Below are positions 1,741 through 18,729 of a stretch of DNA of 20,165 nucleotides, in pieces. The notes beneath the pieces were generated by a model, which was not told where the DNA came from, did not search any database, and worked only from the letters and a program-made list of their open reading frames with translations. The translations under genes were made by a program, and so were the position numbers. Position 1 is the first letter of the stretch. Every line of letters starts with the position of its first letter. This DNA is from a virus: positions 1 to 20,165 of IMG/VR virus record IMGVR_UViG_3300009705_003114, one strand, 5' to 3'.

Positions 1741-2477
1741 TACTTAACACCCTCTTCGTAGGTGCTGGCACTGATCAGGTTTTTGATCTGCTCCCAGTGG
1801 GGTTGGATACTTTTCCAATCCTTGCTGTTTGCAATCGCGACTGCTTGCTCGAAGTTTTTAAGACCGGCGTCTCTCAGGATCTGGAATTGTGCGTGGGCAT
1901 TTTTGACTTGCCGCGAGGAGATTTTCTTAGTCGTTGTCTTGCCGGTAAGCCAATCGGTCCACGGCTTTAGAGGAACCCTATCAGGGCAAAGGGTTACTGC
2001 GTCAGACAGGTTGATGTAACCCGTGATATCGGCGATGTCCTTTTTTCTTTCTTTAGTCTTTAGTTTTTCTTTTAAAGATTTAGTACTTCTTTGGTCACAA
2101 GATTTGCGATCCTTGTTTTTGCGATCTTCAAAAATGCGATCCCTAATTTTGCGATCTTCACCGAAGTCATGTGGTGTATCGGTCACGATCCAATCCCAAA
2201 TGTGACCACGATCTTTCCTATAAACACGCTTGAGATAACCTTCGCTTTCAAGCAGGGTGGTGATCTTGGTAACCTTGTTGGGTGATATGGACCAGTGCGC
2301 TGCCATCTGCTTTCCACAGACTTGCCAATCCTCTTGATGGCTCAGTAGATAGGCTAAGATGCCCAGCCCTTCTGCTGTGAGGTTGTCTGCTCGACTGTTC
2401 GGATCGGTGCTGTTACCTCGAATGAGGTTGTTCGGAAGTACGGTGAAATCACGTTTGTGGTTGCTTTTAAAAATCAT
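1740..2477 (-). CDS. Winged-helix phage replication organiser / DnaT- or O-like protein
   Basis: This 245-residue protein has an N-terminal winged-helix region (about 30-100) of the kind found in phage replication initiators: an F..LPNNLIR start, then GLGILAYLLSHQEDW, a recognition-helix segment and a wing ending WDWIVTD. A very basic middle (105-145) contains D-R pairs every five residues, encoded by the iterons at 2103-2160. The C-terminal third (about 165-235) resembles the DnaT/helicase-loader tail found in such proteins. The start has CAAGGAG at 2484-2490, six bases upstream. It probably binds the origin within its own gene and loads the primase-helicase, whose start codon overlaps its stop. 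By analogy with lambda O, initiator and origin travel together. The family is recognised by pattern only, so the exact name is uncertain. Confidence 0.75.
   Translation of the reverse strand: MIFKSNHKRDFTVLPNNLIRGNSTDPNSRADNLTAEGLGILAYLLSHQEDWQVCGKQMAAHWSISPNKVTKITTLLESEGYLKRVYRKDRGHIWDWIVTDTPHDFGEDRKIRDRIFEDRKNKDRKSCDQRSTKSLKEKLKTKERKKDIADITGYINLSDAVTLCPDRVPLKPWTDWLTGKTTTKKISSRQVKNAHAQFQILRDAGLKNFEQAVAIANSKDWKSIQPHWEQIKNLISASTYEEGVK
2040..2160. other. Candidate replication origin: four 15-bp iterons plus T-rich tract inside the initiator gene
   Basis: The hexamer GCGATC occurs at 2106, 2121, 2136 and 2151, exactly 15 bp apart, usually after TTTT or AAAAT. Each copy contains a GATC Dam site. 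Directly beside them, at about 2040-2092, lies a strongly T-rich, easily melted tract on the plus strand. Iterons within the initiator gene next to an AT-rich block is the lambda O/ori arrangement. The spacing also equals five codons, so a protein-level repeat could contribute. Calling it an origin is inference. Confidence 0.5.
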
Positions 2478-2654
2478 TCATCACTCCTTGATAAGACCAA
2501 CTGTGTCAGATGATCTAGTTCAATGCAAGCAACGCAACCAAAAGATTGAGTTAGCGTCAATCTGTCGAAAAAATAGGAGGTTTATCCGAAAAGAGTGTTA
2601 AATCGAGTTACATAGTGCTAGTTTTCGCAAGGATACAAAAACAAGGAGGTGTGT
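2478..2654. promoter_or_regulatory. Divergent control region with operator-like dyad
   Basis: This spacer separates the minus-strand replication genes from the plus-strand repressor operon. It contains the perfect dyad AGATTGA-7 nt-TCAATCT at 2543-2563. A possible plus-strand promoter overlaps it (TTGAGT at 2546-2551, 17-bp spacer, AAAAAT at 2569-2574; a weak -10). A run of GCAA repeats lies at 2524-2538. The dyad is placed to let a dimeric repressor control its own transcription and possibly the divergent operon. No convincing minus-strand -10 was found. An AGGAGG at 2575-2580 has no start codon at a usable distance. Confidence 0.45.
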
Positions 2655-3149
2655 ATGAACACAACAGGAGGATCTAACGCGACCAACGACGTAAAGAAGC
2701 GTCGAGCGAAGTGGTTAGACCAAAAGCTTACTGATCATGGTTACCAGCGGTATGGACGAGCCACAGAAATCAGTAAAACTTTGAGCTGTGGGATGTCATC
2801 AATACAAGGCTGGATGCGTGGAAGTTTGCCGCGAGACCTTGAGCTGGCTCACAAATTCTGCAAACAGTACAAGCTCGATTTAGTTGAGTGGATTAGCCTA
2901 GAGCAAAGCGAATTCGGAAGTAACTCTCCAAAATTGGAGGAGATGCAGACTGTCGTTGACGCCGTTCTTCAGTCAAAAGAATTTGAGGAATCACTAACCA
3001 CTTTAGAGCGACCGCATCCGCTAAACTCAGTTACGTTTGTGAAAGTATTTCAAATAATTCTTAAAAGTTTAAGAGAACCTGGCTCTAGCGCAGTGGATAG
3101 TCTTGATTTTATCCACAGCTACGTCGAATCGGAAAGGGCTATAAATTAA
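2655..3149 (+). CDS. HTH transcriptional regulator, candidate phage repressor
   Basis: This 164-residue protein has a basic N-terminus and a helix-turn-helix-like segment at about 36-66 (RATEISKTLSCGMSSIQGWM followed by a basic turn and AHKFCKQY), resembling XRE/Cro-CI-type DNA-binding helices. The C-terminal half is acidic and helical. I see no S24 LexA-type Ser/Lys protease domain, so RecA-stimulated self-cleavage is not expected. I chose the ATG at 2655: AAGGAGG at 2643-2649 lies five bases upstream, whereas the in-frame GTG at 2649 falls inside that Shine-Dalgarno. It is first in the plus-strand operon and its promoter region carries a dyad operator. It is probably the lysogeny repressor, but it could equally be a Cro-like or CII-like switch protein. 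Confidence 0.6.
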   Translation: MNTTGGSNATNDVKKRRAKWLDQKLTDHGYQRYGRATEISKTLSCGMSSIQGWMRGSLPRDLELAHKFCKQYKLDLVEWISLEQSEFGSNSPKLEEMQTVVDAVLQSKEFEESLTTLERPHPLNSVTFVKVFQIILKSLREPGSSAVDSLDFIHSYVESERAIN

Positions 3150-4607: not shown

Positions 4608-5133
4608 GCAAGGCGAACCAGGTTGGCTCATTGAACGAGCCGGTAAAATTAACTCTTCAAACTGCGCTGCGTTCGAACGTCAGCATAAGTTTTCCAAGCC
4701 ACTGGATGTGGTGCGAGAATCAGTACGCGCATTGTCTGGCGCCGAATCCGAATTTAAGGGCAACCAGTTCACCGATTGGGGAACGAAGCACGAACCTATC
4801 GCTATCGACAGATTCGAGCGACTCACAGGCTTAGTGGTTGAGCCTACTGGTTCAATAGCACATCCAGATTACCCCTTCCTTCGAGCCTCACCTGACGGGC
4901 TGATAGGTCTAGACGCCTGTATCGAAATCAAGTGTCCCTTCAACGGTCACGGAAAAGGAAAGACTTACAGTATCAAAGATCCAGCTAAGACCATGTACCT
5001 CTGGCAAATCAGGATGCAGCTAGAGGTCTTGGACCTCGATGTCTGTCACTACTTTTGCTACATCAGTGAAGACGTCTTTAAGCACGAAGAGGTTGTTCGC
5101 GGCGAGTATTTTTCTCACGAAATTCAAGGATAA
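4600..5133 (+). CDS. YqaJ/lambda-type viral recombinase exonuclease
   Basis: This 177-residue nuclease is of the YqaJ/lambda-exo branch of the PD-(D/E)XK superfamily. GTKHEP (61-66) holds the conserved Glu65. SPDG (98-101) supplies Asp99, and EIK at 109-111 is the E-x-K catalytic pair. Q136 and Q140 in WQIRMQLEV match the conserved motif-IV Gln pattern. It should resect duplex ends to make 3' single strands for the annealing protein. I start it at the ATG at 4600: GGAGG precedes it at 4589-4593 and it overlaps the Sak-like stop by 8 nt, typical of coupling. An in-frame ATG at 4531 would lie deep inside the upstream gene. The protein is shorter than lambda exonuclease (226), mainly at the ends, and the catalytic set looks complete. 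Confidence 0.88.
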   Translation: MFKQGEPGWLIERAGKINSSNCAAFERQHKFSKPLDVVRESVRALSGAESEFKGNQFTDWGTKHEPIAIDRFERLTGLVVEPTGSIAHPDYPFLRASPDGLIGLDACIEIKCPFNGHGKGKTYSIKDPAKTMYLWQIRMQLEVLDLDVCHYFCYISEDVFKHEEVVRGEYFSHEIQG

Positions 5134-5136
5134 GAA

Positions 5137-5433
5137 ATGAAACATGTTTATGGAGCAAAACGTTTGCGCGTTTTTCATGCAGCACAACAAGCGATTGATC
5201 ACGATCAACCAGAATCTTTAAGCGGTCAGCTAATGGTGATTGGTGTATTAGTTGCTAACACAGAGGAGGTGGAAGGACATCTTATTATGCACCCCAAATT
5301 GAAGAATAGTGGGGCGACGATAGGCTTAGATTTCGTTGACGTAATGAAAGATGTCTCACAGCTTGTTGAAAAAAAGTACGACGATGCGGTGCGCTCATGG
5401 AAAAAATCTGTGGCGTCAGGATACGCAAGTTGA
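5137..5433 (+). CDS. Small hypothetical protein in the recombination cassette
   Basis: This 98-residue protein starts three bases after the exonuclease stop, with AAGGA at 5126-5130 six bases before the ATG. It has a basic N-terminus, a hydrophobic stretch LMVIGVLVAN (about 32-41) too short and too mixed for a clear membrane span, and a charged helical C-terminus. I do not recognise the family. Its last 37 bases overlap the next reading frame, and a run of A's (5401-5406) lies in the overlap. Its place in a tightly packed operon supports its being real; a role accessory to recombination or host takeover is only a guess. Confidence 0.6.
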   Translation: MKHVYGAKRLRVFHAAQQAIDHDQPESLSGQLMVIGVLVANTEEVEGHLIMHPKLKNSGATIGLDFVDVMKDVSQLVEKKYDDAVRSWKKSVASGYAS

Positions 5434-9271: not shown

Positions 9272-9589
9272 CTACTTTTTCGACATCCAACTTGAAACTC
9301 CCATATAACCGCCGACGATTGAGGCGCAGGATATGTAGAACAAACCAAACAATTCACTTAATGCAGTGACTCGGTCAACGGCTACCATCGGGGTGAAAAG
9401 TACGGCAGTGAAAAAGACTATGGAAGCCATCGCCGCTGAAGCCATTCTTCTATGCGCTGTACTCTTTTCTTCAGACAGCTCCATATCGATAATCCTTTGA
9501 GCTTGATCCATCTCCAAGCTTGTGACATTCCCGTCATTATCTGTGTCAATACTTTTTGCATAGCTTTGAATCCTTTCTTCAATTGTCAT
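9272..9589 (-). CDS. Two-TM protein with EF-hand loop, holin candidate
   Basis: This 105-residue protein has a textbook EF-hand calcium loop at 15-26 (DTDNDGNVTSLE: Asp at 1, 3 and 5, Gly at 6, Val at 8, Glu at 12), flanked by helices. Two hydrophobic helices follow, at about 49-70 and 78-98, and the C-terminus is SKK. Size and two close spans fit class II-like holins. The ATG overlaps the stop of the giant gene as ATGA, so it is translated with the virion operon. Calcium-binding holins are not a family I can name with certainty. It might instead be a membrane protein ejected with the genome. Confidence 0.7.
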   Translation of the reverse strand: MTIEERIQSYAKSIDTDNDGNVTSLEMDQAQRIIDMELSEEKSTAHRRMASAAMASIVFFTAVLFTPMVAVDRVTALSELFGLFYISCASIVGGYMGVSSWMSKK

Positions 9590-12500
9590 TTTAACTGGCG
9601 ATATCGCTTGTTGAATCTGTCATAGAGAAGCTCGTTGTCGGTCTTTAGTTTTTTCTTTCTCTCTAGCAACCTTGCAGCGTAGTCTCCTGTCGCTGTATCA
9701 ATTGCAGATTCAACAGCCCTAATTTCCTTCCGGTTCTTCTTTAGCTTTTTGTCGGTCGCTTTTCGGTTGGCGTTCAGTTGAGTGTAGTACTGGCGAGAAC
9801 GATTCTTTGTTAGAGTTTCTCTACTCTGACTGTTCGCTGCGTCCCAACCATCCATCTCCTGACCCAGCTCCCTGCGATTATCGTAGTACTCGAACTGATC
9901 CTTGTATTCACTGGGGTTGTAATAAAAGCGACTCCATATTGGTATGTCAGTACCTTTCAATTCCTCACCTTTTGGAATCGCGGTCTTCTGAATAGTGTCT
10001 GCCACATCAGTACCAAACCGACCAAGACCTCCCAGAGCAAAATCAAAGATGTGCTGCAACCTATCGGGAGACATGTCGATAGCTCCGCTAACCTGTTGGG
10101 AGCCGCCAGTTAAAGAGTTGATAGCCTTAGCGAAACTCTTAAACCCTTCCATCGTGCTTCGCTTTGAGGCACCGTCAGAGCTTGATGGTTGGTCCGTATA
10201 AGGGGTGGGCATTACTATTGGTGAACCAAAGAAGTTTACGTTTCCTACTTGCTCTATGAAGAACGCTCCAACGTCAGGCGTTAATGTAATCGCTGCTTGG
10301 AAAGTATTACCTAGACTATCTGTATCGTCTTTAACGGCATGAAAGCCTCTAGGAGAGAAGTGGTGAAGAGTGACATTAAGTGCCTCAACAGCGGCTTGCT
10401 CTGGCTCTTTGGCACCCATTAGCTGCTCACCAATAAGGCGCCCCATGTTGTCAGCCCAACCCCATCCGTAAGGCAGGGGTACACCGAATGCCCAATCGCC
10501 ACCCATAAATGTTGCTGAAGTCTGGAGCTGGTAGGGGTTGTAATCGTTGTATTTGGATTCACCGTCTTCATCTTCATCAGCGAACATGAAGTTCATTATC
10601 GTCCTACTGATACCGAAGGCGACTAGCCCGAAGAACAATCGCCTGGTTGCCGCAATTCCCAAGAGCTTCGCTTTGTCTCCTGGTGCAGCGGCGCCTACCA
10701 GGGCGTCTTTAAGGTTGACGTTTCCTTGTATCGCGGCATTAAAGAACAAGTAGAGTGAATCAATCTGGCTGGAGTACTCTCCCTTTCGGTTGAAGTTAGT
10801 GGTTAAGTCTTTCGCGAGAGTAGCGGCTTCCTGTCGAGCTATACCGGCTTTTCTTGCCTCCATATAAGTAGACAGGCGTATTGCGTTTTCTGATGATTGG
10901 TTGAACGCCTCTACCCAATCAGTCGCAGCATCAAAGTACTTTCCGAATTTGACTCTCGTGTCGATAGCCGAAGGTATATTCAAGTTACCAATCTTTATAG
11001 GCTGTGGACCCAGCTCCTTCTCAAAGTCTTTTCTAAGCTCCTCCAGATCCTTGATAGTTGCCAAACCCGTAGGCGCACCATCAGCGATGTATTCGTCTAT
11101 GTATTTGAATATCTCTTTTTGCTTTTCGCTGTTTGGTTCTTTATTTCGCTCATGGTCGTAGTAAGCTTTGAACGAAGCTTTAAATCCTAAGAACACATTG
11201 GCGACTAAGTCCTTATCCTTAACCCTGCCACCGACTTTGTTTTGTTCAGCCAAGAGGAAAGCTAACCCTGTTTCGACATCCCTCATTGGGTTAACTAAAC
11301 CCCAGCTAGGGTTGTAATTAATGATCATCTTTCTTCTGAAGTTGTTAATCGCTCTTCCGGTTTTAAATATTCCGTCCAATACTTCGTTTCCGCTATTCAA
11401 TGTCATCGAATTAGCGTCATGTAGTTGGGCGTTTAAAACGGGGTCTCTAAACTCAATAAAGAAGGTCTGACCACCACGCTTAACTTGAACGAATCTTGGA
11501 AGGTTGGGGTACTCCAACATCTTGGCGTTTTGCATGTCTCTCAGAGGCATAGTCTCCCCTAACAGGTCTTCCTTAGACCCCTTGGGATACGGCGCTCTAA
11601 ACTTATTGTTGTATACCGTCCAACCCGTCCTCTGGTCTGTTGAGTCAAACCGCTCTACTAACTTTAGAAGGCGTTGGGCGACTACATTTTTTTCCGCTCG
11701 AATTATTTTTTCACCGGCATTCTTAAACGCCATTAGAAGGGGGTTCTCTGGTAGCGAGAGCCGACCTCTAGCCTTCATCGACTCTGGACCGGTGATGCTG
11801 AAACCTTTAGCCCCGCTTCCTCCAGGTACTATTGAATCTGCTGGCTCTCTAAACCCTCTAAGAGGAACATAGAACTCATAGGTTTCCTCCCAATCCCTTT
11901 TGGACTCTTCGTCCAACAGACCCTTATCGACCATGTTCTGTCGCATGTCATCGAGCATCTTGTAGACTTGTGTCGCTATCTCTTCGAACTGGCTTGCAGT
12001 ACCCGCTTCTTCTGCTGCGCTTAGAAGTTCCGCTGCCTCGGTATTTGATACACCGGATCCGTTATCTTGAAACCTTAACGGCGCCTCCTCAAGGATCTCT
12101 AACTTACCTTCAAGAGTTGTTGTGGTTGCTATGGATTCCGACTCTTCAATCGCTTTCTGAAGAGCTGCAATTGCAACCTCTCTTTTTTCCAGCTCTTGCT
12201 TTTTAATCTCAGCGTTACGCTCTGGAGCGTGTTTGGCTAAGAGATAAGCGCCAATTTGATCCGCGCTCAAACCATACTCTTTGGCTAAATCGGCAAGAGG
12301 TGTAATGTACTCTTCGCCAAAATCTTCCAACATCTTTTGAAGCTTGGAGTGCATTAGATTTTCTTGGTCTCTGAATGACTCTTCAGCACCCAACTTATCT
12401 TTACCAAGAGTTGCCGCCATCGAATTCTCTACGGTCTCCCACCTTTCAAACTTATCCTGTACGGCAGCTATAAGCTTTCTAGGGAAATACTTGGTTAGCC

Positions 12501-15500
12501 AGGTTGATGTCTGTCTTTCGGCTAAAACCTCATCGTTGAGATTGAAAGCAATTCCTGGCGTGTGCCTACCTTCAAGCTTCATGTAAAGGAAGTCATCAAC
12601 TTCGGGAAGGTTAGCCTTGTTCACGTTCTTTGCGATAACAAAGTTGCCGACTTGAATTACATCTTCAAAGGTTACAACTGGGTACTGGTCATCAAGCCTA
12701 TAGAAGTGGCTGTGCTTTCTAGGGTTCATAGATACCTGAGTCCACTCTGGATCATCTATGGCGTCTAAGAATGCCGCGAGGTTCTCTTCGTTAGTAGCTG
12801 GAACATAACCACCTTCTATCGTTGCAAATGTGGTCTTACTTTTTTTACCGGTGCCGACTCCAGCCGCTGCTTTTTGATTAACCCCAAAAACACCATTGGT
12901 CATCCTCAAGGTCTTGGCGTAACCCAGCCTTGTCCCAGCCGCTCCAGCGTTAGGGTTTACTCTGGGTTCATGGATAGTGACAACACTGGTTTTTTCGTCT
13001 GCTGATAACTGGTTGTTGTCGGGGTTGTTTGCCGGTATGTCTAGACGACCAGCAACCCTTTGACCAGGAGAAAGGTCAGCCGCATTGAAGAAGGTTTCTT
13101 TGCTAGGCTTTCCTGTCTTTTCTCTGCTTGTCTTTCTTAATGCGTTTATAGATTTCGCATCAGACGGGAGGGTGATTATTTTTTCAGCTTGCTCTCTGGT
13201 CAGAGACTGAACGAATCTGCCTTTCTCGGCTTGTATTTCGTTTAATTCTTGCGCGGTGATTTGGCGATCTATACGGGCTTGGACCGCGTTTTGTAGGTCC
13301 GGTTCTGGTGCTTGGGACGGTCTTGTTAACTGAGCTGGAGAAACTCCGGTATCATCTGTTCCTCTTCCGGCATCAGTAACTGTGTTGGGTCCAGAACCCT
13401 GTCGGGGTACGCCATTTCCAGATACGTCTCCCTGTCGATTTTTTTGTCTTTGAGAATCATATAGTCGAGTGTTGGGTCCATCCCAGGTTGGTGGTTGAAT
13501 CCTTTCGGCATGCTCATAGACTAGACTCCTTGCCTTGCTGATATCTATTTTGTTGTTTCGGTATTGCATCCATACCGATTCGACATAGTTTACGTTTTCT
13601 TCGTTGCTTTTGTAAGCAGGGCTGAACAATCCTCTAACAGCTTCCCACGTTATGCTTTGCATTTCTCTCGGCAAAACCTTTCGATCCTTAGCTGCTCGTC
13701 TGTAAGCCTCTTCGTAAATAGAGTACGTTCCGTTATGTCCCGTGACTGAACTATTTGAGGCTCCAGGTTGACCCTTTTCGTGTTGACCTCCAAAGTTATG
13801 CGCTACTTCTAAGGAGTTACCGGAAAGGGGCTTGAGTAATGAGGCAGCTACAGCGTGAGTGTCTATCGTCACAAATCCTGACTGTGACTTGGGATCAAAT
13901 ATATTGTTGTAAAAGTTTCTTACTTTATTAGCCGCACCCAGAGAAGTTGTTATGTTATCTTGAGCGCCGTTCCTAAGAACAGATACCGCCTTGGAAATCT
14001 CGTTCAAAGAACCCCACGCGACCTTTGAGTTAGAACCGTCAATGTTCTGAGCGTTCTTCAGCATTTTCCCTTCTGGGGATACAATTGGGTAGGAGCGGTC
14101 GTTATAAGTTTCGTCGTATGTCCTGATCCAAAATGCTGTTAAGCGGTTTTTTTCGATGTCATTGAGACTTTGGTCAATCCAGATTTCTTCCATTGACCTT
14201 GTGCCTATAGTTGCAAGCATCTCCTTGTTTTCTTTTTTAGCTTTAGCAGACCCTGAGAAGTAAATCTGTTTCGCTTTGGCTGACATCGATGCATCAAAGT
14301 CTTGATCAAATTTGTCGTGATAAACCTCCATCACTCTTCGACCAAGGTCTGCATTCATGTACCAATCTTTTTGCGGAGACAGGTTTGCTAGGACCGCTGA
14401 AGTTTGAGCTAGAGTTACTTGCTCGTTGCCGCGAGAATACTTTTTCGCCAAGTCATTAGCGATCTTATTGGCGCCAACGTACCAGAGCTTTGATCTTGCC
14501 CTAGTCTTTTTTGGGACTAGGTCGAACAAGTATAGGAGGTTTGCTTTTGCATGCTCGATAAGAGCTTCTGCCGCATCCGTGTCTTTCTTTATCGATTCCT
14601 GCTTTGTTAAGTTGGTGTACTTCTTAACTAGGATCATGTTCTTTGAGAACACAGGAGAGTCCACAAACGAATCGTAACTATTTACTAGAGTGTTGTTGAC
14701 AGGATCTTCGGTATTTCTGACGGCGGTAGGAAACCGAGTGCTAACCACCATCGATAAAAGGTCAGGCTCTCCGTTCATTTCTGAATTGATTTCAGCTATC
14801 AACTCAGGATTTGTGTGCCAATTCTCCCACGCTACACGATCTGCCTTCAGACCGTCGATAACAGCTTTAAGAGCATTGGCATCTTTGACGTCAACGCCGT
14901 ATTTGGACGCAACTTCTGGCTTCTTAGAAGCGCCTGTAATTGCGCTCAAATCTGCTGTTATCTCACGCTGTTTCTTGCTGACGATCTTCGACATCGCTGT
15001 GGCTGTCTGCATTGCGGAGTCATCAAATGCAAACATACTGTCTTGCTGACCGGCGCCTCCAGCATTCGGGTCAACAGCCTCGATAGCCTTCATCACGTTT
15101 ACAGCTTCGATAGCCTTAGAGCCGTCTATTAAAGCCTTTAGTCCGGCAGCTTGTAGTGCTGTGTTTCCTGGAGCGTTAAGGGCTACTGCTTCCGCTTCGG
15201 CGTCTGTGATTTGATCGTTACGATGGGCGGTAATGAGTTCATCCGATCCACCAGTTGCGATTGCGTAAGCCCGTTTGCCCGTTGCTCTTGCCAAAAGTCC
15301 TCGACTGTTTGCTTCTTCTTTGGAGAATTTTGTTGCTTTGAAGTAGTTGACATAATCTTTTACCTGCCCCTGTTCATCACGCAGATTTAATTCCGCATCC
15401 ATGATCTGTGCATCTTGTACGTTGAATCCATCAGCTTCTCGAAATACTTGGCTGAGAATAGTTTTTTCACCGCTCCGTTTTGCCAACTCGAATCTGTGGC

Positions 15501-18500
15501 GACCTGATATAATCTCTTTTCTACCGTCGTTACGCTCCCATACGAGAATGGGACCAACGCCTGTGCTGTCAAACGTCCCACCTAGACGCTCAACTACACC
15601 CTGATCGTTAGCTCCTGTCTTAAACTGTGGAACATCCTGAGAAAGTGACAGCTCATCAACGGGTAGTTGAATCGGCTGCAATCCCTCAACGCTGCTTTGA
15701 GTTTCCCGTACCGTTTCTTCTTCACTAGAGCCGTCTTCTTTGGTATCTGCTATCTGTTGCTCTAACTCTCTCTTTTGTTGTTCAGCATTTGCCTCAGTTT
15801 CATCGTCTGCCAAACCTTCATTAGCGCGAGAAGTGTTAGGTCCATCAACGCGACTATCATTGGGCGGTATCTCATCAAGCCCTTGTTGGTTCTCGAACTG
15901 TTCTTTTACTGATAAAGTTCGTCCATCACCGTCCCCGTCTTGGTTGTCGCCCTGTCCCGCCACTCCGGTATCGGTTCCCCCTTGTCCACCGCCTTCTTCG
16001 CTATCGCGTCCAGATTCTCCGGTGTCAGATGCTTCATCGCCTCTATCGACGGTAGGTGGTTGAACGTCTCCTTGTACTTCTGCACGTTCTCCGTCAGCGG
16101 CGTCCTTGCTTTGAGTGTTACTTGCATTTCTTCTCTCCGTTAAAGACCTTGAATCTGCATGAATATCTTGCATCATCTTATAGGTTTGAGGCGCGAATTT
16201 CTTGAGCAGCTTCGGGTTGTTCGTGAATACGGCGCCAGCTTGCGCGAACAATTCTATCCGCATCATTTTCGCCCCAGCCTCTAAGTTACCACCTACTTGG
16301 TTCTCTAGGTAATTGGCGAGAGTGTCGAAAGGGTACTTAAAAACCTTCCCAAGATCATTGTCAGCGGCATAGGCGCCATACATCTCGCCTGTAAGAGAGT
16401 CTAGGTCCATCCTTATCTCGCCATCAACCCTAGTTAGCTCAACCCGCATGCCAAGCATTTCAGTGCTAAATTGTTTAGCTGCGTCAAGAGCGTGGTACAG
16501 TTCGTGGGTTACCGCAAACAGGAGCTGTTTTTTAGCCACAGGGTTGGTCGCTGCTTCTCGGATAAAAGCCTTGTTAACAACGACTGTGTTGGTGCTGTTG
16601 CTGTAAGCCGCCGGTACATAAGTCGGGTTGCCTTCAGCCGGAAGTCCGTCAAAGCCATAGAACCCGCTCACCGAATCTAGTGCCGCTCTTGGAAGTCCTC
16701 TGCGTATAGCTTCAACTAGCACTGATGTGAAAGTTTTTAATTCGGGAGAGTTCTCCACATCGGTGGCGCCAAATGACTCTACAATACTTAGTAAGTCATC
16801 ATCGCTTTGCTTGCCTCCAACAGTGTCTTTGGGTGCTGTCGATCCGACTCCAGAGAGTTTTTGTACTAACGCTCCAAATGTCGGCATTCCTTGCTGAGTA
16901 ATGCTGTCATCGCCGTTTGGCTGCGGTGTCGGTCCTGCCGTCTGGTTGTTTATATCAGCCACTTGCTGATCAATAGGGGCGTCTGTTGGGTCGAAATCAC
17001 CAGCAACAGGTAAGGTAGAAGTGAGGTCTCCAGGGCTTTGATTAACGATCCCAGACGCAGCTACATCTAACCCATCCGTAGGTTCGTTGAATCTTGCCAG
17101 CTCTTTTTCTAGTCCGGTAAGATCGGCGAATCGGTCTTCTACCACAGGGCTGCTTGCTTGCTCTTGGGGAGCGTCCTGTTGAACTAGCTCGTAAGTAGCA
17201 ACCTCTCCTGTTCGGTCAACAATAATTCTGCCTTCCTCTTCCAGAACCTCTAAAATTTCTAGCTGCTCTCCTCTATCTATACCGTTAGCTTCCGCTAAGT
17301 TTTCTAAGGATTTTTCTCCTGTTACGAACGGCATATTTTCTACCGTGTTCTGAAGCTTAATTTCCATAGCTTCCGGCAGAGGTTCTCTCCCTGGGTTATT
17401 CTGTGCGTCTTCGTAAGCTTCAGATGCCCTTTGCCTTTGCTCTAATATTATCCGCTCCCTCTCTCTCTCCTGCTCTACGCTGAAAGTTGGGGTTTCTGGA
17501 TCAGTAGGTGGAGCTGTGGCATCAGGGGGTGGAGCTGTGCCATCAGTAGGTGGAGCTGTGGGAGGACCATCTCCCTCATCGTCATCTTCCGCAATCAAAG
17601 GGTTTTCGCGAAGTACTGTAGGACCGGCAGCGGCACCTGTAATGCCTCCCATGAAAGTCCCGCCGACAGCTCCTGCTGCCATTGCATGGATATAGGAAGA
17701 GATAGCATCTTCGCCAAACATGTATCCCTCAAACTTTTCCTGGTCCTCTTCTGAGAGATTTTTGGACGCCCACTTAACGCCTAGACGAGACAGCCCCTCT
17801 TGGGCTACTTCTGTAACGCCTTCCAGTACTCCTGATTTAAGAGCCTCTGAACCCACTGCTTGAAGTCTTGTTTCTGGGGTAATAACACGGTCAAACATTT
17901 TCCTGATTGTGCTGCGCTCATTCAGAGCTTCCTCTGCTAGGTCGTTTCTGATTGCGTCCAAAGATTCGTCAGGAAACATTTTTCTAAATGCCCTAAACGG
18001 AACACCGATAAGGTCCATCGCACCCATAGCGATGCCAGCACTAAAAGCTGTCGCAGGGTCTTCTAGTCCTGTTTCTTCAACAATGCGACCGAAGCTTTCA
18101 CCGACTCCAGCTCCTGCGCTAAAGGCAGCACCTCCCGTTACAGTGCCTATCTTGCTGTATTTTTTAGCAACAAGACCAACGTAACGCTTTTGAGACTCTC
18201 TCAGAACCTGATTCTCGGCTACGCCTTGAGCAGCGTCTTGCATCCTGTCTCTCATGGATTTCTTTATCGCGGCAGTAACCGCTACTTTTGCAGTTACCCC
18301 TGCAGCAGCTCCTCCAAATCCCCCTGTTCCGATCATCCCAACCATGCTGGGAACCAGGTTACCCGCAGTAAAAGACAGCCAATCAGTAAAGTCGGTGAAC
18401 TGGTCAACCCACCCGTCTTCTCCCCACTCATCTTCAAAGGCTGTTCTTGGTGCGTACTGGGAAGCTTCATCCATTTGCTGACGGTAATAATCTAAGCCGT

Positions 18501-18729
18501 CATCGACCCATTCTCTATTACCTACAGCGGAACCGACCGCTGCTTTTAGTCCACCAGCGAGAGCTTGCGTCTGATCAACGCCAGACTTGATGCCTTTAAC
18601 AAACTCGAAACTGTCATCCTCTTCCTCTTCGGGGAGAGTGAAGTCTCTGGGTTCGCTGCTTTTCTTGTAGAACGGATCTGTATCGTATGGTTCTGGGCTT
18701 AGATCGTTTTTGCTGTTAAAAAATGCCAT
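9586..18729 (-). CDS. Giant multidomain polyvalent protein (zincin, ParB-like, glycosylase-like, LPD domains), probably ejected with the genome
   Basis: This protein has 3047 residues. The acidic N-terminus is followed by Gly/Ala-rich hydrophobic segments (about 120-155, 195-245, 345-370), a Pro/Thr/Asp linker (385-415) and a possible winged helix (465-520). A zincin metallopeptidase has HELYH at 742-746 and candidate third ligand E826. A ParB/sulfiredoxin-like domain has GRHRFELAKR at 1076-1085. A DUF7178-like, possibly HhH-glycosylase-like, domain has LSPQKDW at 1450-1456 and TIDTHA with D1623. Then come an LPD-type motif (KHSHFY, 2005-2010), an LPD38-like region around W2476 and a basic coiled-coil tail (2970-3047). 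This assembly matches phage 'polyvalent proteins' thought to be packaged and delivered with DNA to counter host defences. Two disordered linkers (868-942, 1738-1802) contain probable nested genes. Domain names are by motif recognition. Confidence 0.85.
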   Translation of the reverse strand: MAFFNSKNDLSPEPYDTDPFYKKSSEPRDFTLPEEEEDDSFEFVKGIKSGVDQTQALAGGLKAAVGSAVGNREWVDDGLDYYRQQMDEASQYAPRTAFEDEWGEDGWVDQFTDFTDWLSFTAGNLVPSMVGMIGTGGFGGAAAGVTAKVAVTAAIKKSMRDRMQDAAQGVAENQVLRESQKRYVGLVAKKYSKIGTVTGGAAFSAGAGVGESFGRIVEETGLEDPATAFSAGIAMGAMDLIGVPFRAFRKMFPDESLDAIRNDLAEEALNERSTIRKMFDRVITPETRLQAVGSEALKSGVLEGVTEVAQEGLSRLGVKWASKNLSEEDQEKFEGYMFGEDAISSYIHAMAAGAVGGTFMGGITGAAAGPTVLRENPLIAEDDDEGDGPPTAPPTDGTAPPPDATAPPTDPETPTFSVEQERERERIILEQRQRASEAYEDAQNNPGREPLPEAMEIKLQNTVENMPFVTGEKSLENLAEANGIDRGEQLEILEVLEEEGRIIVDRTGEVATYELVQQDAPQEQASSPVVEDRFADLTGLEKELARFNEPTDGLDVAASGIVNQSPGDLTSTLPVAGDFDPTDAPIDQQVADINNQTAGPTPQPNGDDSITQQGMPTFGALVQKLSGVGSTAPKDTVGGKQSDDDLLSIVESFGATDVENSPELKTFTSVLVEAIRRGLPRAALDSVSGFYGFDGLPAEGNPTYVPAAYSNSTNTVVVNKAFIREAATNPVAKKQLLFAVTHELYHALDAAKQFSTEMLGMRVELTRVDGEIRMDLDSLTGEMYGAYAADNDLGKVFKYPFDTLANYLENQVGGNLEAGAKMMRIELFAQAGAVFTNNPKLLKKFAPQTYKMMQDIHADSRSLTERRNASNTQSKDAADGERAEVQGDVQPPTVDRGDEASDTGESGRDSEEGGGQGGTDTGVAGQGDNQDGDGDGRTLSVKEQFENQQGLDEIPPNDSRVDGPNTSRANEGLADDETEANAEQQKRELEQQIADTKEDGSSEEETVRETQSSVEGLQPIQLPVDELSLSQDVPQFKTGANDQGVVERLGGTFDSTGVGPILVWERNDGRKEIISGRHRFELAKRSGEKTILSQVFREADGFNVQDAQIMDAELNLRDEQGQVKDYVNYFKATKFSKEEANSRGLLARATGKRAYAIATGGSDELITAHRNDQITDAEAEAVALNAPGNTALQAAGLKALIDGSKAIEAVNVMKAIEAVDPNAGGAGQQDSMFAFDDSAMQTATAMSKIVSKKQREITADLSAITGASKKPEVASKYGVDVKDANALKAVIDGLKADRVAWENWHTNPELIAEINSEMNGEPDLLSMVVSTRFPTAVRNTEDPVNNTLVNSYDSFVDSPVFSKNMILVKKYTNLTKQESIKKDTDAAEALIEHAKANLLYLFDLVPKKTRARSKLWYVGANKIANDLAKKYSRGNEQVTLAQTSAVLANLSPQKDWYMNADLGRRVMEVYHDKFDQDFDASMSAKAKQIYFSGSAKAKKENKEMLATIGTRSMEEIWIDQSLNDIEKNRLTAFWIRTYDETYNDRSYPIVSPEGKMLKNAQNIDGSNSKVAWGSLNEISKAVSVLRNGAQDNITTSLGAANKVRNFYNNIFDPKSQSGFVTIDTHAVAASLLKPLSGNSLEVAHNFGGQHEKGQPGASNSSVTGHNGTYSIYEEAYRRAAKDRKVLPREMQSITWEAVRGLFSPAYKSNEENVNYVESVWMQYRNNKIDISKARSLVYEHAERIQPPTWDGPNTRLYDSQRQKNRQGDVSGNGVPRQGSGPNTVTDAGRGTDDTGVSPAQLTRPSQAPEPDLQNAVQARIDRQITAQELNEIQAEKGRFVQSLTREQAEKIITLPSDAKSINALRKTSREKTGKPSKETFFNAADLSPGQRVAGRLDIPANNPDNNQLSADEKTSVVTIHEPRVNPNAGAAGTRLGYAKTLRMTNGVFGVNQKAAAGVGTGKKSKTTFATIEGGYVPATNEENLAAFLDAIDDPEWTQVSMNPRKHSHFYRLDDQYPVVTFEDVIQVGNFVIAKNVNKANLPEVDDFLYMKLEGRHTPGIAFNLNDEVLAERQTSTWLTKYFPRKLIAAVQDKFERWETVENSMAATLGKDKLGAEESFRDQENLMHSKLQKMLEDFGEEYITPLADLAKEYGLSADQIGAYLLAKHAPERNAEIKKQELEKREVAIAALQKAIEESESIATTTTLEGKLEILEEAPLRFQDNGSGVSNTEAAELLSAAEEAGTASQFEEIATQVYKMLDDMRQNMVDKGLLDEESKRDWEETYEFYVPLRGFREPADSIVPGGSGAKGFSITGPESMKARGRLSLPENPLLMAFKNAGEKIIRAEKNVVAQRLLKLVERFDSTDQRTGWTVYNNKFRAPYPKGSKEDLLGETMPLRDMQNAKMLEYPNLPRFVQVKRGGQTFFIEFRDPVLNAQLHDANSMTLNSGNEVLDGIFKTGRAINNFRRKMIINYNPSWGLVNPMRDVETGLAFLLAEQNKVGGRVKDKDLVANVFLGFKASFKAYYDHERNKEPNSEKQKEIFKYIDEYIADGAPTGLATIKDLEELRKDFEKELGPQPIKIGNLNIPSAIDTRVKFGKYFDAATDWVEAFNQSSENAIRLSTYMEARKAGIARQEAATLAKDLTTNFNRKGEYSSQIDSLYLFFNAAIQGNVNLKDALVGAAAPGDKAKLLGIAATRRLFFGLVAFGISRTIMNFMFADEDEDGESKYNDYNPYQLQTSATFMGGDWAFGVPLPYGWGWADNMGRLIGEQLMGAKEPEQAAVEALNVTLHHFSPRGFHAVKDDTDSLGNTFQAAITLTPDVGAFFIEQVGNVNFFGSPIVMPTPYTDQPSSSDGASKRSTMEGFKSFAKAINSLTGGSQQVSGAIDMSPDRLQHIFDFALGGLGRFGTDVADTIQKTAIPKGEELKGTDIPIWSRFYYNPSEYKDQFEYYDNRRELGQEMDGWDAANSQSRETLTKNRSRQYYTQLNANRKATDKKLKKNRKEIRAVESAIDTATGDYAARLLERKKKLKTDNELLYDRFNKRYRQLK
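13326..13517 (-). CDS. Probable gene nested in +1 frame inside the giant gene (1)
   Basis: A 63-residue frame begins MSMPKGFNHQPGMDPTLDY and reads like a folded small phage protein, with balanced hydrophobic, charged and aromatic residues throughout (MILKDKK, TYLEMAYPDRVL, EEEQMIPEFLQL). AAGGAG at 13526-13531 is eight bases before the ATG, an optimal ribosome site. In the giant frame the same DNA (residues 1738-1802) encodes Gly/Thr/Asp/Gln-rich, disorder-type sequence and starts right where the DUF7178-like domain ends. Codon meaning therefore looks invested in the nested frame. Function is unknown; an early-evolved structural accessory is possible. Translation is not proven. Confidence 0.55.
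   Translation of the reverse strand: MSMPKGFNHQPGMDPTLDYMILKDKKIDRETYLEMAYPDRVLDPTQLLMPEEEQMIPEFLQLS
15906..16127 (-). CDS. Probable gene nested in +1 frame inside the giant gene (2)
   Basis: A 73-residue frame starts MQVTLKARTPLTENVQKYKE and continues as a plausible helical protein (LPSIEAMKHLTPENLDAIAKKA in part, then EPIPEWRDR and a VMDELYQ end). GGAG at 16135-16138 lies seven bases before the ATG. The overlapped giant-frame stretch (868-942) is a Gly/Asp/Glu/Gln run between the zincin and ParB-like domains. Same +1 offset, same linker context and equally good ribosome site as the other nested frame, which makes chance less likely. No family is recognised. Confidence 0.5.
   Translation of the reverse strand: MQVTLKARTPLTENVQKYKETFNHLPSIEAMKHLTPENLDAIAKKAVDKGEPIPEWRDRATTKTGTVMDELYQ
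17501..17563 (-). repeat. Three tandem 21-bp repeats in the giant gene
   Basis: Units at 17501-17521, 17522-17542 and 17543-17563 share TCAGnnGGTGGAGCTGTG with few differences. On the coding strand they give a seven-residue Pro/Thr/Asp/Ala repeat (TAPPTDG-like) in a flexible linker after the last hydrophobic N-terminal segment. A typical in-frame slippage repeat. Confidence 0.85.

Follow-up and report, generated by a model that had tools for sequence, protein, structure and literature searches.

Comparative evidence for a small gene nested in giant phage genes beside a DUF7178-like domain

Nested phage genes and effector-immunity pairs are both already known. In the Rz/Rz1 pair of phage lambda, a small gene lies within another gene in a different frame and has its own ribosome site, and the two products act as a pair; the locus described here resembles this system. 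Its outer gene recalls the polyvalent proteins, giant multidomain phage proteins that are presumed to be packaged and injected and that carry the LPD38 domain (PMC5512222); a search of its text turned up no mention of overlap. There are two further likenesses. The MuF polymorphic toxins of temperate phages, with their immunity genes (PMC5576092), pair an effector-type protein associated with the virion with a small, cognate-like gene that travels alongside the effector domain, and the phage DNA-glycosylase inhibitors Ugi and p56 (PMC3794593) are proteins of about the size of the small protein reported here that block a DNA glycosylase.

The nested frame, its host gene, and the extended DUF7178 domain

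We analyzed a stretch of 20,165 nucleotides from a virus (IMG/VR record IMGVR_UViG_3300009705_003114, positions 1 to 20,165), here called the window. A sequence-only reading of the window had pointed to a 63-codon open reading frame (ORF) in the +1 frame of a giant gene, with AAGGAG eight bases before its ATG, and all of these elements were confirmed in the places that it gave (Table 1). The ORF begins with the ATG at 13517 and encodes the small protein MSMPKGFNHQPGMDPTLDYMILKDKKIDRETYLEMAYPDRVLDPTQLLMPEEEQMIPEFLQLS. Over the same bases the giant frame, which had been described as disorder type, does read as a linker of low complexity (YEHAERIQPPTWDGPNTRLYDSQRQKNRQGDVSGNGVPRQGSGPNTVTDAGRGTDD...). 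The ORF had also been said to begin exactly where the DUF7178-like domain ends. This is roughly right: the nested ATG corresponds to giant residue 1738, which is position 379 in the domain model of 401 residues, and the extended DUF7178 domain thus has its last conserved residues within the overlap.

Profile matches place DUF7178 (PF23802) in the middle of the giant protein and LPD38 near its C terminus (E 2e-27), and the host thus satisfies the definition of a polyvalent protein as a giant multidomain phage protein with LPD-type domains. By eye, a metallopeptidase-like HExxH motif (THELYHALD) and a ParB-like motif (ISGRHRFELAKRSG) were also noticed at giant residues ~690-780 and ~1030-1100 (ORF 9586-18729); motifs of both kinds are typical of polyvalent proteins.

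Table 1. Positions of the nested gene and of its host gene in the window
Feature	Position	Strand	Basis
Small-protein gene (63 residues), nested in the giant gene's +1 frame	13326..13517	-	Family profile match E 3e-11 (clade held out); nested-frame pN/pS 0.24
Ribosome-binding site AAGGAG, 8 nt 5' of the nested ATG	13526..13531	-	Read from the sequence; sites commoner at family starts than background
Giant polyvalent-type host gene encoding 3047 residues, with DUF7178 and a C-terminal LPD38	9586..18729	-	Profile matches
Extended DUF7178 domain, giant residues 1360-1760 (~1361-1745 folded), 5' part of the putative cassette	13450..14652	-	Predicted mainly helical, HhH-GPD-like DNA-glycosylase fold
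Lys1602 codon of the giant gene, within the KVRNFYNN motif; candidate catalytic lysine (HhH)	13924..13926	-	Invariant in 40/40 aligned domains; catalytic role inferred from motif
Asp1623 codon of the giant gene, within the TIDTHAV motif; candidate for the catalytic aspartate	13861..13863	-	Invariant in 40/40 aligned domains; catalytic role inferred from motif

DUF7178 is a Pfam family of unknown function, whose profile matched the host domain at 75 to 85 bits (gathering cutoff, 27) and also matched 40/40 members of our domain set. The AlphaFold2 model of the domain, built from 40 relatives, is mainly helical (pLDDT 93.6, pTM 0.90). Foldseek alone found no significant match to this model. When the Foldseek candidates were re-aligned, 8-oxoguanine DNA glycosylases came out best, with Z scores of 9.2 and 8.8, which helical models can reach by chance; the top 25 re-aligned rows comprised 8-oxoguanine glycosylases, endonuclease III, an uncharacterized Pyrococcus protein, and DUF2419 queuine-salvage enzymes. 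K1602 and D1623 (in the TIDTH motif) are invariant in the 40 domains, and we take them to be what is expected of an HhH-GPD catalytic pair, without a superposition on a known active site. We regard an HhH-type fold resembling the 8-oxoguanine DNA glycosylases as likely but not proved for the extended domain. PDB sequence searches with the domain and with the small protein returned nothing. As for the genomic setting, the host gene of L068 lies in a T7-like tail/internal-virion module, between tail-tube and internal-virion genes, and that of L080 adjoins an SU10-type portal gene, which fits delivery with the virion, as has been proposed for polyvalent proteins (PMC5512222).

Relatives, selection, and starts of the nested frame

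The length of the nested ORF alone is no proof of a gene, because 41% of random synonymous recodings of the giant gene also leave the 63-codon +1 frame open. With the window and L007 held out of the profile, the window ORF had a family score of 51.7 bits versus a best of 30.0 among 5,000 recodings, and its similarity to its relatives is beyond chance. It still matched when the profile was built without any member of the window's clade (E 3.1e-11), and nothing else in the window scored credibly.

A first scan with the small protein led to L002, an otherwise different giant protein that shares only the DUF7178 domain and has a 42%-identical small protein at the same +1 position. The remaining first-round relatives were picked by domain and not by ORF; 80 viral loci, L002, and the window made up a set of 82. 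The small-protein profile found exactly one match per locus in 82/82 loci, beside the same domain and nearly always in the +1 frame, and no match to the family elsewhere among 18,281 six-frame segments. L046 and L035 at first seemed to lack the small gene; the sequence of the former ends within the ORF, and the latter has an insertion in the host gene, beyond which the small gene picks up from a new ATG. A further candidate, L003, was rejected as a relative, since it matched only by chance, through YLEMAYPD in one of its structural genes. A tblastn search of 50,697 phage records with four small-protein queries gave nothing credible.

A comparison of substitution patterns in both frames, which had been suggested with the sequence-only reading, reveals purifying selection on the nested frame but not on the linker frame of the giant. 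When the window is compared with L007, the three codon positions of the nested frame show 0.21, 0.19, and 0.48 differences, respectively, and pN/pS in this frame is 0.24, while pN/pS in the giant frame is 1.01 in the overlap and 0.19 over 150 codons upstream. The corresponding pN/pS values in 24 other hosts are 0.41 in the nested frame, 1.03 in the giant frame of the overlap, and 0.17 upstream, and in other giant pairs, such as L010/L014, L005/L006, L061/L062, and L028/L045, the constraint switch is centered on the ORF; in several giant clades it is confined to the ORF. Therefore, selection acts on the nested frame, whereas the linker of the giant can change almost freely, and frame-specific purifying selection, a criterion for a nested overlapping protein-coding gene, is met. 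The case named in advance as refuting the gene, a conserved linker with a broken nested frame, was looked for among the relatives and was not seen.

A second criterion for a nested gene, conservation of its own start codon and ribosome-binding site, is likewise met. A ribosome-site match at the proper distance precedes 67 of 76 distinct family starts, compared with 303 of 1,675 other +1-frame ATGs (18%) in the same host genes (p 9e-38). Because the position of the site differs between clades, codon choice at the conserved Arg is uninformative as a test of selection on the ribosome site.

Stand-alone homologs, for which a search had also been proposed, do exist. In L221 and L224, the small gene is in frame with the host, a few bases 3' of the host stop codon; in L253 and L257 it also comes after the host's end (in L253 beyond a stop codon and without a change of frame); in L238 it is inverted, converges on the host gene, and has a GTG start and GGAGG of its own; and in L035 it is displaced by the host insertion and has a new start beyond it. 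The L035 insertion (2399-3000) adds about 150 residues to the host in the middle of the small gene (LYHGTNQADLKKL..., ART-like by eye); the old start of the small gene is still present, and the body resumes after the insertion. The L253 and L257 contigs, which contain the domain and the small gene, were binned with the uncultured archaeon LFW-28 and are probably phage contigs, with the host unverified.

Two readings in which the nested frame would not be a separate gene can be judged on these data. The large share of recodings that keep the frame open would suit a chance shadow ORF, opened by the codon make-up of the giant and resembling its relatives merely through DNA homology. However, the family score was never reached in 5,000 recodings, selection acts in the nested frame where the giant frame is neutral, and copies exist outside the overlap, one of them inverted; frame-specific constraint together with the stand-alone copies refutes this reading. 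Alternatively, the small sequence might be a +1-frame alternative C terminus of the DUF7178 protein, reached by programmed frameshifting without any separate protein, as could be supposed from the nearly constant overlap with the domain end in the same +1 frame. We consider this very improbable in view of the conserved start codon and ribosome site and of the copies that lie in the same frame behind a stop (L221/L224 and L253), on the other strand (L238), or beyond an insertion (L035); the arrangements in L221/L224, L253/L257, and L238 exclude frameshifting as a general explanation. The comparative evidence (relatives, frame-specific constraint, ribosome sites, and copies outside the host gene) is thus strong that the nested ORF is a real gene, as the sequence-only reading had held.

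No credible profile match to the small protein was found in Pfam, PHROGs, or NCBIfam, and on sequence grounds we assign it to an undescribed family of ~60-residue phage proteins. Its structural model consists of three short helices (pLDDT 78.5), and a fold search with this model found nothing. The median pI of the family is 4.5, but some clades reach 9. We considered simple acidic DNA mimicry as a role; it is weakened by the basic members, and the variable charge argues against it.

Pairing with the domain, and domains without the small gene

A scan with the small-protein alignment yielded 79 further loci, many of whose contigs are common to the earlier scans. The domain is adjacent in 78 of them: it lies just upstream with a +1 overlap in 75 and just upstream without overlap in 2, and in 1 locus the small gene is inverted; the remaining locus lies at the edge of its contig. 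With 78/79 loci, the small gene and the domain show the tight genetic linkage required of an effector-immunity pair. That the small gene stands next to a DUF7178-like domain had been noted earlier from the window, but its place in a widespread two-part cassette had not been foreseen. The small protein was never seen fused in frame to the domain protein. In the 70 dereplicated domain rows that have the small gene, the host gene terminates within it in 14 cases and shortly downstream of it in 28, and in the other 28 it continues for hundreds to thousands of bases; at least six changes between the nested and non-nested states are needed on the tree.

The window and L007 are alike over the domain and the nested gene and then saturated at once downstream, and the host flanks among the representatives fall into 11 upstream and 9 downstream sequence clusters. 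Based on these limits of similarity, the diverse flanks, and the pairing, we read the domain and the small gene as a two-gene cassette that, as far as sequence comparison can tell, occurs in many different proteins and whose two parts move together. In the absence of expression data, we are nevertheless confident that the nested gene is real, independently translated, and paired with the domain in such a cassette.

The small gene is absent in 11 of 81 dereplicated domains, which form three to four groups (zth2-2-like, L125-like, CRP-738, and MD07). The aligned domains of these groups keep the invariant Lys and Asp; the sequence after the domain is different, and the domain is still found in giant proteins. 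The small gene was sought elsewhere in the 13 records without it and was not found, in a search that had no positive control, and scanning for frame switches in these clades detected no clear second hidden gene after the domain. In a scan of bacterial genomes with the domain as query, the copies in bacterial assemblies had the small gene in 9/13 cases and lacked it in 4/13. Sequenced strains that carry a relative include Jannaschia seohaensis DSM 25227 (L247) and Pseudofulvimonas gallinarii DSM 21944 (L245). The other criterion for an effector-immunity pair, that the effector is always accompanied by the small gene, is therefore not met, and the partner is not universally required; the clades without it are the main difficulty for the mechanism proposed below. 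After the domain of L087 (Rhodobacteraceae phage LS06-2018-MD07), positions 5070-5222 give a weak small-protein match (19 bits), which may be a degenerate or very diverged copy or may be due to chance.

Proposed role and comparison with known systems

When wholly inside the giant gene in the +1 frame, the small gene would be translated by internal initiation at its own ribosome-binding site. Where the domain is terminal in its protein, the small gene follows or partly overlaps it; where the domain belongs to a longer polyvalent protein, we suppose that the host frame was extended through and past the small gene, thereby leaving it nested in an otherwise unconstrained linker. Our leading inference is that the small protein, produced in trans from the mRNA that also encodes the domain, is the domain's cognate partner and may keep the enzyme inactive in the producing cell, with the enzyme acting only after virion delivery. 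Any action of the small protein on the domain is likewise an inference made without binding data. Inhibitor or antidote of the glycosylase domain in the producing cell is our first choice of role, as it accounts for the tight linkage, the production of a separate polypeptide, the co-transfer, and the retention despite full nesting; without neutralization data, it remains a tentative inference that we put at somewhat less than even odds. To the complete proposal, in which the nested gene serves specifically as antidote to, or inhibitor of, a DNA-glycosylase effector delivered by the virion and forms with it a mobile cassette insertable into unrelated giants, the antidote being hidden in the other frame of the effector's linker, we assign a probability of roughly 0.35.

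That the small protein acts as a chaperone in the folding or packaging of the domain protein is a weaker yet real possibility: the product is a small helical protein made beside an internal-virion-type protein and never seen fused to it in frame, but the clades without it still have the domain in giant proteins. It is also possible, though in our judgment unlikely, that the small gene is real and has a function unrelated to the domain, e.g., as a minor virion or assembly protein, and is linked to it only by conserved synteny and overlap. The location of the domain in conserved virion modules, the domain clades that do without the small gene, and the lack of direct evidence for an interaction are all compatible with this, whereas the pair is kept across unrelated upstream and downstream contexts, also when non-overlapping and when inverted, and nearly all copies found adjoin the domain. 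That the small protein serves as an activating subunit seems to us more doubtful still.

Whichever role applies, few long overlapping phage genes are backed by frame-specific selection across many lineages. The relatives provide a series of states from separate neighbor to deep nesting in a multikilobase gene and therefore can show how growing proteins swallow genes. The analysis also names a small-protein family that is missing from the searched libraries; linking this family to a single enzyme domain opens the function of both to testing. It further suggests that hidden partner genes may be sought in the linkers of other polyvalent proteins.

Compared with lambda Rz/Rz1, the host here is a multikilobase polyvalent gene, the nested gene lies in a neutral linker, and the overlap ranges from none to full across relatives. 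In contrast to the MuF toxins (PMC5576092), no MuF domain was found here, the small gene overlaps its neighbor or is nested, and toxicity and immunity are hypothetical. Ugi and p56 target uracil-DNA glycosylase (PMC3794593), whereas the presumed target here is the phage's own HhH-type domain, and the charge of the small protein is not consistently acidic. What is new here is an undescribed small-protein family that is kept hidden inside the linkers of giants and is tied to one mobile enzyme domain.
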